Shown: one piece after another, positions 39,529 through 43,323 of the stretch | Numbering within the stretch: position 1 is the first letter of the stretch | Layout of the letters: every line of letters starts with the position of its first letter | Origin: Pirellula sp. SH-Sr6A | GTDB taxonomy: Bacteria > Planctomycetota > Planctomycetia > Pirellulales > Pirellulaceae | Length of the DNA: 64,000 bases | NCBI RefSeq assembly: GCF_001610875.1 | Contig: NZ_CP011272.1 | Coordinates: forward strand, 3,205,988 to 3,269,987 | Direction of reading: 5' to 3' | Made by a program: the position numbers and the translations under genes | Notes under the pieces: generated by a model | What the model saw: only the letters and a program-made list of their open reading frames with translations | Database searches by the model: none | What the model was told of the DNA's origin: nothing

Positions 39529-40359
39529 CTAAGGTTTTCGTGGATTGACAGGAGCGTTGGGATTGTTGCCCGCGGGCTGCCCAAACGGATCCGCCGGGGG
39601 ATTTGCCCCTGGGTTACCCGCTGGATTAGCGCCCGGATTGGCACCTGCGGGCATGGGGCCACCTGCCGGAAATGCAGGGCCGACTCCGCCCGGCTTCTTG
39701 GGATCGTTCTTGTTTGCATTCGGAGGATTGACCGGTTTCTTGACCCCGCTTTGCGGTTCGCGAATTTGACCTCCACCGATCGGGAGGATGGCGCCACCCT
39801 GCATTGCACTCGAGCTTTCCAAGGTTCGGTTCCACGGGATCGTGTAGGCGGCGAAGAATCCGCTCTTGGTATCGACGACGTAAACCAAGCACGCAGCAGG
39901 TCGGATATTGCTCCCTACCGACGCGGGATCGGCAGCCCCGGTGATCAAGAGATACTCGGGATTCTTGCTCATTCCCAATTGGGCTTGGACGTTGGTATAG
40001 AACATCCCCCCGAACGCGCCTTGCCGTGGGTAGTACACCCAGCACTTGAGATCCCCGGTGAGAAAATCGAGGGCAAAGAAGCCTTCGGAGCTCTCGTCGA
40101 TCTGACCGGTTGCAACCGCCAGATTGGCGCCACCGTGGGTGGCGGATGCCTGCAACAGCTCGGGCGGAACGCGATCGCGAGGAATTCCATTCCATTGGCT
40201 CGCCTCCTGGCTCCCCTGACTCCATCGTCCCACGCCATAGCCAACACCAGCGATCGCTGCGATCGACAGACCGAGGAGAACTCCCAATGCGAGTGGATTC
40301 CATCGGCAGCATGCCTTCGCGGTTGGCTCACCGTCCAAGACTGGTAATTGATTCAACAT
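39529..40359 (-). CDS. Single-pass membrane protein, Pro/Gly-rich C-terminus
   Basis: A 276-residue protein with a membrane anchor near residues 23-45 (LALGVLLGLSIAAIAGVGYGVG). An outside domain of about 130 residues follows (LAVATGQIDESSEGFFALDFLTGDLKCWVYYPRQGAF to FFAAYTIPWNR). The end is low-complexity, rich in Pro, Gly, Asn and Ala (about 200-276). The middle has the strand pattern of a small periplasmic beta domain with ALDFLTGDL and VVDTKSGFF repeats. I do not recognise the family. It is separated by 34 bp from the BtaA-like gene and shares its strand. Confidence 0.65.
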   Translation of the reverse strand: MLNQLPVLDGEPTAKACCRWNPLALGVLLGLSIAAIAGVGYGVGRWSQGSQEASQWNGIPRDRVPPELLQASATHGGANLAVATGQIDESSEGFFALDFLTGDLKCWVYYPRQGAFGGMFYTNVQAQLGMSKNPEYLLITGAADPASVGSNIRPAACLVYVVDTKSGFFAAYTIPWNRTLESSSAMQGGAILPIGGGQIREPQSGVKKPVNPPNANKNDPKKPGGVGPAFPAGGPMPAGANPGANPAGNPGANPPADPFGQPAGNNPNAPVNPRKP

Positions 40360-40581: not shown

Positions 40582-43323
40582 TTAACCGTTGCACAGCATC
40601 AACGATTCCAACCAATCTCCCCACTGCCGAATCGAGACCACATCCATCAACGGTTCATTCAGCGGGGAGACCGGCACTTGGCTATTCCCCCCCGGCCAAT
40701 GGATCAGTCCTTGCCAAAAGCCACTTTCATCCACCTCCAACCTCAACTGCAGTGGATCGGATGACCGCCGGCCAGCAAAGCATGTCTGCAAGTCGACCCG
40801 CCCCAATTTATTCCAAGTCGAATTCCCCAATCTGGACCCCTCCACAAACTGCAAGACCGGTTGCCGTTCCCCTTCTTTGGAGAATCGCAAAGTCCGCGTT
40901 GCCTGGCACGACAGCGGCTTGTCTCGAGGAATCAAAATTCTGGGGGCCGTGACGCCACTAGCATCCTGCATCACGACACCGAGATCGTAGGCAGTGCTGG
41001 ATACCGCATGGGGAGAATCGATATCCATGGGTGGCATCAAGTACTCTGCTTGAATGGCCGCTCCGCGGGCGATGTGGCTGGATTTAAGTGGGATCAATGG
41101 AACCTTCGGCCCCGCGACTTGGGCAACCGCATTCTGAATGGAGGGATACCACCGGGCGTCTCCAAGCAACAAGACCGCGTCGAATCCGCCCGGCGCGATC
41201 CCGACGCGATCGGCAACCTCTTTGGCATACAAACCGCAGTCGCTTACCAACTCATCCACCCACTCCTCGGGCCGATTCCTGTCGAGCCGCCCCTCGAACT
41301 TCCCGCCAGGGACCTCCACGATAAAGGGAACAACCGAGGCGGCACGCATCCGTTCAAAAGTTCTCTCCACCGTTCGCTGAATGCGCGACGCAATGCTCCG
41401 GTCCTCGCGCGCGCTCACACCGAATCGCTTTTCCAATTCGCTGGCAATCTTCTTCGCCATGCGATCATGCCATCGGACCATCCCGCGACGCCAGTCACCT
41501 GCGGTCGCGATCAACCGAACCTTCAATCCCTCCACTTGGACAACGGAAACTTCGCATGAAGAACCCGTCAACATCGCGACCAGAAACGTCCGGCGATACC
41601 CGTCCTCCGAAGCCGTCTTGGCCAAACGGGAATCGATCTCCACATGGGCCAACGTCGCCGCCAAAGGCTTTTCCAACAGCTGAAGCAATTCGATCCCTGC
41701 GATCGAACAAGCGGTTTTAGTGCTCCATCGGTGCAACTGATCGTAACACGCGGGAACGGTTACGACGGCATGCGAGGCGCTGGGCAGAACATGCCGCGTC
41801 GCGTTGACCATCTGCCTTACCACGGCTGCTACCAAGACCTCCGGTGGCACCTGCCTGCCTCCGAAAGGTCGCTCGAGCAACGGCAGTCCATACCATCGCT
41901 GCATCCCATAGAAGATACGATCGGGTTGACTCGCCCGAAGTTCCGCAGCCTGTCCCCCGACCGCAACCCGCTCTCCATCGCTGTACAGCATGTTGCGAAG
42001 CGTGGTTGATTCCCCATCGACCGGGACCTCTTCTACCTTGTGCTCTCGATCGATATAGCTCACCCGGGAATGGATCATCCCCAATTCGATCCCAATGGCT
42101 GCTAACTGCCTCTGCGAAGTCGAGGGAGCAAGACCAAAATCGGTTGGGCGAACCGGGGAAATCTTTGGTAGTACCGACTCACCTTGCCGCGACGAAGACT
42201 CCAGCCCTTCCATCAAATTCAATCGCTGCAGTTTGTCGATCAACTCCGCTGCCGACTGAAGCCGTTCGTCTGGGTTCTTTGCCACCAACGATTGGAAAAC
42301 CGAATCCAATCGAATGTCGACATCCGCGCGGACTTCGTACAACGCAGGCGGTCTGCGGTGGACCTGCGCTAATGCAGTCTGCACCAACTCTCCCGAAAAC
42401 ATGGGCCTGCCGGTCAGCAAATAAAAAACCGTGGCTCCGAGCGAATACAGATCGCACCGATGGTCGACTTGATCAGGTGCATTGATTTGTTCCGGAGCCA
42501 TGAACTCGACCGTTCCGATAATCTGCGAACGTGTCCGATCCTTGGTGCTCTCCATTCGGTCGCGCAGCACGGCGAGTCCAAAATCTAGAATCTTCAGCGT
42601 CCCACTGGGCGTCAGCATCATGTTGCTCGGTTTGATATCCCGATGAACGATCCCGAGTGAATGCGCATACTCGAGAGCCGATGCGGCTTGGATCAATATC
42701 TCCACGACCTCTCGGGTCGACATTGGACCTGAAGCTGCGATCCGCTGTGATAACAACTCGCCTCGAATCAACTCCATAACCAGAAAATGCACCTGAGCAT
42801 CCCCGGACCGGTGGCAACCTGCGTCAAAGGCGGTGACAATGTTGGGATGCATAAGTTTCGCGGTCGCGCGCACTTCGGCGTAAAACCGTTCGCGGGCGAG
42901 CGCGTCATGAGACATCGACTGGGGCAATATCTTCAACGCCACCTCCCGATCCATAGTCCGGTGCTTGGCCCGGAAGACTTGCCCCATCCCCCCAGCGCCG
43001 ATTCGTTCCAGGATGACGTATTCCCCTAACACGGGGAGCGAAGGGGTTTTCGGATCGGACCCGCGATCCAATGGTACAACCCCGGGTTGCAATTCAAACT
43101 CGCCGGAATCGCTGTTCGGGTCGAAGTCCCCGATACCGGCGATTTGCCCTTTCTCATCGCCCTCTCCATTGGTGTCGACGTTACCACGCCCCGCCAAACC
43201 GCTCCGGGCATCTGCTCCTATACCTCCCCCGTGCAAATCGATCGCCCGGGTAACGGCTGGCCGCGCGACGGGAGGCCGGGGAACCGGCGGGGGGACAGGC
43301 AAGTCGGATGGGCTGTCGGACAT
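40582..43323 (-). CDS. Ser/Thr protein kinase fused to an Hsp70 (DnaK-like) module
   Basis: The 913-residue protein has a Pro-rich leader, then an active-looking PknB-type kinase at about 103-370. G-loop GAGGMG is 109-114, Lys131 lies in VALK, HRD is 227-229, Asn234 and DFG 247-249. It is followed by an Hsp70 fold. The nucleotide-binding part (about 408-765) has AIGIELGMIHSRVSYID, VVTVPACYDQLHRWSTKTA, LLEKPLAATLAH and ARGAAIQAEYL. A beta-type substrate-binding segment is at about 776-880 (AYDLGVVMQD, ILIPRDKPLS). No helical lid is evident. The phosphate-1 loop is degenerate (ELGMIHS instead of DLGTTNS), so Hsp70 ATPase activity may be weak. There is no membrane helix. Role unknown. Confidence 0.9.
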   Translation of the reverse strand: MSDSPSDLPVPPPVPRPPVARPAVTRAIDLHGGGIGADARSGLAGRGNVDTNGEGDEKGQIAGIGDFDPNSDSGEFELQPGVVPLDRGSDPKTPSLPVLGEYVILERIGAGGMGQVFRAKHRTMDREVALKILPQSMSHDALARERFYAEVRATAKLMHPNIVTAFDAGCHRSGDAQVHFLVMELIRGELLSQRIAASGPMSTREVVEILIQAASALEYAHSLGIVHRDIKPSNMMLTPSGTLKILDFGLAVLRDRMESTKDRTRSQIIGTVEFMAPEQINAPDQVDHRCDLYSLGATVFYLLTGRPMFSGELVQTALAQVHRRPPALYEVRADVDIRLDSVFQSLVAKNPDERLQSAAELIDKLQRLNLMEGLESSSRQGESVLPKISPVRPTDFGLAPSTSQRQLAAIGIELGMIHSRVSYIDREHKVEEVPVDGESTTLRNMLYSDGERVAVGGQAAELRASQPDRIFYGMQRWYGLPLLERPFGGRQVPPEVLVAAVVRQMVNATRHVLPSASHAVVTVPACYDQLHRWSTKTACSIAGIELLQLLEKPLAATLAHVEIDSRLAKTASEDGYRRTFLVAMLTGSSCEVSVVQVEGLKVRLIATAGDWRRGMVRWHDRMAKKIASELEKRFGVSAREDRSIASRIQRTVERTFERMRAASVVPFIVEVPGGKFEGRLDRNRPEEWVDELVSDCGLYAKEVADRVGIAPGGFDAVLLLGDARWYPSIQNAVAQVAGPKVPLIPLKSSHIARGAAIQAEYLMPPMDIDSPHAVSSTAYDLGVVMQDASGVTAPRILIPRDKPLSCQATRTLRFSKEGERQPVLQFVEGSRLGNSTWNKLGRVDLQTCFAGRRSSDPLQLRLEVDESGFWQGLIHWPGGNSQVPVSPLNEPLMDVVSIRQWGDWLESLMLCNG

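Follow-up and report, generated by a model that had tools for sequence, protein, structure and literature searches.

The window, by which we mean the whole 64,000-nucleotide stretch of Pirellula sp. SH-Sr6A DNA analyzed here, is part of a genome assembled as a single contig of 6.5 Mb. On its reverse strand lies a complete open reading frame (ORF) that joins a Ser/Thr protein kinase to a domain of Hsp70 origin. Its product belongs to a monophyletic family of one-frame kinase-Hsp70 fusions, which we call class II and of which 65 distinct sequences were collected from many assemblies. The ORF and the parts of its product are as follows.

40582..43323, reverse strand: complete ORF, kinase-pseudo-Hsp70 fusion (class II), 913 amino acids
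43036..43323, reverse strand: residues 1 to 96, variable N-terminal tail, predicted to be disordered (pLDDT below 50, poor alignment among relatives)
42256..43020, reverse strand: residues 102 to 356, PknB-like Ser/Thr protein kinase domain (PF00069, PDB match, invariant residues)
42112..42216, reverse strand: residues 370 to 404, short flexible linker without a transmembrane segment (pLDDT below 50 at residues 373 to 404)
41014..42111, reverse strand: residues ~405 to 770 (the boundary at 770 is approximate), Hsp70 nucleotide-binding fold, nucleotide site destroyed as judged by its residues
40654..41013, reverse strand: residues ~771 to 890, beta-sandwich of the substrate domain (SBD-beta) with diverged groove positions
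40591..40641, reverse strand: residues 895 to 911, lone C-terminal helix, the remainder of the lid being absent (predicted secondary structure, lid count)

Both halves of the 913-residue product exceed the curated Pfam cut-offs. PF00069 matches residues 102 to 356 (E value of 1.3e-48; 166 bits against a gathering score of 31.7) and PF00012 matches residues 483 to 869 (E value of 1.4e-32, well over its cut-off), so the earlier note was right to propose a true kinase-Hsp70 fusion in one frame. The NCBIfam DnaK model covers residues 409 to 869, DnaK is the closest solved relative of the Hsp70 half in a PDB sequence search, and structure prediction, which the note had put forward as a check, gives an Hsp70 fold (nucleotide-binding domain and SBD-beta) with good confidence.

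The kinase half has a complete catalytic set, K131, E150, HRD at 227 to 229, N234, and DFG at 247 to 249, in which the lysine, HRD, and DFG had been named correctly before and are conserved. Of 64 class II kinases, 61 have the full set of corresponding residues (K, E, RD, N, and D-x-G), and the other three are truncated or not aligned; DLG or DMG replaces DFG in 35 of the 61. Judged by these residues, the kinase half of class II looks active. Its best PDB sequence matches are 1o6y and 1mru (Mycobacterium tuberculosis PknB; E values of 6e-49 and 6e-48), and the likeness to PknB-type Hanks kinases lies in the kinase domain with its catalytic residues. Unlike PknB, the window protein has no PASTA match and no predicted transmembrane segment anywhere along its length (highest 19-residue hydropathy, 1.39), and its C-terminal half is derived from Hsp70. 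It scores 277.5 bits against the 450 bits of the PASTA kinase equivalog NF033483, with a match only at residues 101 to 372. Two class II proteins, L015 (1,253 amino acids) and L098 (1,185 amino acids), carry two kinase domains ahead of the pseudo-Hsp70; the additional N-terminal domain has its catalytic residues in place and branches elsewhere in the kinase tree.

How widespread is this architecture? Relatives of both halves occur in one frame on 16 named contigs, with 40 to 84% identity in the best segment (L024 ends with its contig), and the closest of them come from Pirellula assemblies. Both domains were matched in all 16 sequences of alignment A1, including the window protein (E values up to 0.001), and both exceed the Pfam cut-offs in three members of the other subclade and in Rhodopirellula sp. 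SM50. A profile built from 25 Hsp70 halves and run against 149 genomes of the same family returned 47 matches of at least 536 bits, spread over 46 genomes and each within an open frame of at least 718 residues; below them came four matches at 441 to 499 bits and then none above 399. Kinase sequence lies in the same frame in 46 of 46 top matches checked (all but that of G111), a few of them cut at contig or frame ends. Six more genomes with insert-split matches (G055, G130, G115, G091, G045, and G141) are also class II; at these loci (L179 to L184) inserts split the Hsp70 match, and in L181 to L184 the kinase match is split as well. Class II is thus present in at least 52 of the 149 genomes, including all seven of the window's own genus, a lower bound because the best 10 candidates per genome were scored; a G106 fragment at a contig end was excluded from the count. 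The recurrence in planctomycetes that the earlier note had looked to as support is therefore found.

The searches also reached beyond the family. In the phylum at large (294 genomes, best five candidates each), scores above 500 bits came only from G000 and G038, which belong to the same family, and the next match had 368. Of 12 genomes reached via named loci, only Rhodopirellula sp. SM50 (L213) has a class II gene. Three other phyla were searched with the best 12 to 13 candidates per genome and without a positive control of their own: no match was found at an E value of 1e-90 in 115 genomes of the phylum of the Prosthecobacter record or at 1e-80 in 119 genomes of that of the Actinoplanes record, and the best match in 112 genomes of that of the Myxococcales record had 293 bits, none being near class II. 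A full-length profile search of the phylum (three candidates per genome) was kept out of the counts. As a separate observation, contigs with a viral classification often carry DnaK genes, relatives being encoded by 577 of 600 stretches among the matches listed (L217 to L297).

The most distinctive feature of class II is its nucleotide site. We scored seven catalytic and phosphate-loop residues of DnaK, D8, T11, T12, K70, E171, D194, and T199, with Escherichia coli DnaK from NC_000913 as the reference for numbering. The window protein keeps 0/7, with E413 (for D8), M416, I417, Q475 (for K70), K552 (for E171), M584 (for D194), and S589 (for T199), and the second glycine of the G341-G342 motif is missing as well. 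Across the 65 class II sequences, the tally is 0/7 in 19, 1/7 in 38, and 2/7 in 8. K70 is missing from every one (Q in 31, P in 26, M in 5, H in 2, A in 1), as is D194, and T199 is retained by 3/65. All seven residues are present in each of 57 canonical relatives (38 lone and 19 other kinase-fused Hsp70s) and in L300 and L302, which were added later. The canonical relatives were selected for their similarity to the query and are no census, with the lone L211 and L212 left out; hence, an intact site in lone Hsp70s is stated for those 38 only. Stand-alone Hsp70s of ~520 to 615 amino acids with intact ATP sites include L110, L113, L114, L116, L131, L132, and L143, and several such proteins end shortly past the SBD-beta and lack a complete lid.

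By its residues, the class II Hsp70 half is a pseudo-ATPase with a destroyed ATP site. In the window protein, the degeneracy that the earlier note had seen in the phosphate-1 loop extends to K70, E171, D194, and T199. The loss of these residues, of phosphate-1, and of the G341-G342 glycine, together with a basic residue at position 171, makes ATP binding in the usual mode unlikely, which speaks against the note's suggestion that the module may bind rather than hydrolyze ATP. Lost catalytic residues alone are no proof of lost nucleotide binding. Mutants of Hsc70 K71, which we take to correspond to DnaK K70, lose ATPase activity. Hsp110 keeps nucleotide binding; Hsp110 (Sse1) and other atypical Hsp70s have no kinase, unlike class II. 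Relative to DnaK and other PF00012 proteins, the window protein retains none of the seven residues, has no DnaK-type linker and a single lid helix, and is fused to a kinase.

The surroundings of the gene give no lead to function. In the window, the fusion is accompanied by genes for a helicase, a poly(A) polymerase/CCA-type protein, DUF3419, and argJ; among 19 loci, several of them too short for flanks, this order is common to L009 and partly to L010 and L011. A 276-amino-acid protein is encoded directly downstream (39529-40359, reverse strand), here and in L009 to L011; it has one likely membrane segment and a tail that by eye is rich in Pro, Asn, and Gly, and it has no Pfam match. In 23 class II loci of the subclade that contains Rhodopirellula, a divergent ORF adjoins the fusion (e.g., L121:3806-4834), which in the one representative checked with Pfam is a porphobilinogen deaminase (hemC-type). 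Eight Pirellula-type loci share a recurrent upstream gene, whose L018 copy matches a transglutaminase-like domain. The neighbors are conserved only within subclades and the named ones are mostly housekeeping genes; a functional operon around the fusion was rejected on the former ground.

What, then, may an Hsp70 without its nucleotide site do for a kinase? Going by sequence and predicted structure, we consider it probable that class II proteins are soluble Ser/Thr kinases with a nucleotide-independent regulatory or docking pseudo-domain of Hsp70 origin. We hypothesize that the Hsp70, once fused, gave up its nucleotide cycle and turned into a fixed domain for docking and regulation. It would bind a partner or the kinase's substrates, possibly parts of the chaperone machinery, and such binding would set when and on what the kinase acts. 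The fusion protein would be neither a folding chaperone nor an ATP-driven switch.

A special form of this explanation, which we regard as possible and hold only tentatively, is that the acid at position 8 pairs with the Lys or Arg at position 171 and fixes the pseudo-site as a closed, rigid scaffold. In 65/65 class II sequences, a basic residue replaces the Glu of DnaK at position 171 (38 R, 27 K), and position 8 remains acidic in all 65 (45 D, 20 E). The class II model matches docked, ATP-state Hsp70s (best rows with an rmsd of 2.4 to 2.5 over ~480 residues), with an rmsd of about 24 to two undocked, ADP-state entries. This lends the charge swap no support, since a canonical DnaK control, truncated ahead of the lid and modeled with 16 rows (mean pLDDT of 69, below 50 at the linker), was likewise predicted to be docked (rmsd of 3.1 to 4.1). 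A locked, ATP-like conformation of the class II Hsp70 was withdrawn because canonical DnaK folded alike also docks. Entries of Hsc70 K71 mutants are among the structures that match the folded control.

A somewhat less likely alternative is ordinary domain shuffling, in which a planctomycete kinase acquired an arbitrary C-terminal domain without any chaperone-related role. The genome of the window protein has more than 40 kinase-type matches, and kinase-Hsp70 joins seem to have happened repeatedly. The earlier note had stated that these folds normally occur as separate proteins; lone Hsp70s do exist, but fusions are frequent in the sampled family and belong to two or more types, of which one has kept its ATP site intact. 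This type, class I (17 sequences), shares with class II a kinase followed in one frame by a lidless or short Hsp70. It differs in having a longer linker (48 to 121 residues versus 28 to 41), a 7/7 site, other neighbors (the adjoining ORF in seven loci is thiC, ThiC in the one representative checked with Pfam), and a separate kinase clade (100/97 support for the ten sequences used). L192, L198, and L302 look like further separate joins. L302:2768-6388 (G444, Candidatus Sumerlaeota), from outside the planctomycetes, has the reverse order, Hsp70 then kinase, in 1,207 amino acids with an intact ATP site.

Five kinase fusions (L111, L175, L176, L177, and L185) appear to be intermediates: they keep D8, K70, E171, and D194, have Lys at T199, have lost T12, and carry Thr (three) or Ser (two) at T11. 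In five loci the ORF adjoining them is a MurB-type reductase, as seen with Pfam in one representative. A branch with 100/98 support in the Hsp70 tree sets class II and four of the five intermediates against 38 canonical sequences, and grouping class II with the intermediates is not rejected by the kinase sequences either (AU P value of 0.55, likelihood not lowered). Stepwise loss of the Hsp70 site after one fusion is thus a plausible reading of the sequences, with the proviso that long branches could mimic the pattern. A single origin of all kinase-Hsp70 fusions may be conceivable; the kinase tree has a loose backbone, and one clade of class II, class I, and intermediates has an AU P value of 0.23, which falls to 0.067 once L192 joins it.

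Shuffling explains the origin of the fusion but not its role. In 11 class II pairs, Nei-Gojobori dN/dS is 0.02 to 0.18 for the nucleotide-binding part and 0.01 to 0.14 for the kinase, the former being higher in 8 of the 11 pairs (dS is saturated for L001/L009). Such low values indicate that the presumably inactive Hsp70 half is held by purifying selection, slightly more loosely than the kinase. Retention in 52 of 149 genomes together with the low dN/dS of the Hsp70 half argues that the combination is functional.

We consider it unlikely that class II proteins are client-sensing kinases, in which the Hsp70 half would bind unfolded stretches or peptides without ATP and thereby alter kinase activity, as a one-piece sensor of proteotoxic stress. 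Both domains co-occur in the collected class II members, and the SBD-beta fold is retained. As the earlier note had said, there is no full lid; the alpha-helical lid (SBD-alpha) is absent from the window protein, in which 20 of 98 lid positions are occupied, the end lies near DnaK position 527, and one terminal helix remains, so fast peptide exchange is conceivable. Against a client sensor, T428, kept by 57/57 canonical relatives, Q433, kept by 56/57, and the hydrophobic residue at position 436 are changed in most class II proteins. We take these positions, and position 438, to belong to the DnaK peptide groove; the changes in them make ordinary peptide binding less likely. The hydrophobic interdomain linker of DnaK (VLLL) is also absent, P, H, A, and V being aligned with it in the window protein where the alignment is uncertain, though the linker is altered in canonical planctomycete relatives, too. 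P143 is retained in 63/65 class II sequences and R151 in 65/65. A hydrophobic residue occupies position 438 in 64 of the 65, the remaining one having a gap, and this, with the retained beta-sandwich, counts against our preferred explanation, as peptide binding may still be conceivable.

PERK and IRE1 are stress kinases regulated by BiP. In a bolder and equally improbable version, class II would be a cis-acting bacterial counterpart of such chaperone-gated kinases, whose pseudo-Hsp70, with a charge-swapped site that does without nucleotide, would switch the kinase by capturing J-proteins, DnaK, or aberrant polypeptides; if true, this would be, to our knowledge, the first demonstrated case of a kinase run by a pseudo-domain derived from Hsp70. 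DNAJ-PKAc is a tumor fusion, according to the available part of PMC6533061. Kinase output is tied to the Hsp70 machinery in PERK/IRE1 and DNAJ-PKAc, as proposed here, but Hsp70 acts there in trans, whereas in class II it is in the same chain as the kinase. The available part of PMC4319316 presents Myxococcus StkA as an Hsp70 homologue acting in signaling; this resembles the regulator proposed for class II, but nothing there describes StkA as joined to a kinase. Finally, an artifact of assembly or a frameshift joining two genes, which the earlier note had named as a refutation, is next to impossible, given 65 distinct one-frame sequences from many assemblies and a window genome in a single 6.5-Mb contig.

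Planctomycete kinases that carry other extra domains are reported in the available sections of PMC11032199, and neither "Hsp70" nor "DnaK" occurs in those sections of its main text on planctomycete kinases. The accessible portions of PMC7159879 and PMC8195603 name Hsp70 in other settings, and that of PMC8567305 has neither term. The titles and abstract openings of the literature searched mention no planctomycete kinase-Hsp70 fusion and no lost ATP site; Arcas et al. 2013, on planctomycete kinases, may already list the architecture. Kinases and Hsp70s are known, and the new result is the apparent destruction of the Hsp70 ATP site in class II.

In summary, our analysis suggests that a former chaperone now serves as the control or docking part of a kinase. 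Pseudoenzymes, e.g., pseudokinases, are known signaling parts. Finding a conserved pseudo-Hsp70 is out of the ordinary; class II couples one to a kinase that looks intact, throughout a bacterial clade, and related genomes still carry possible intermediates. Class II is a natural experiment in which the ATPase of a chaperone has apparently been dismantled and its fold kept, and it gives a tangible starting point for learning what the many orphan kinases of planctomycetes sense.
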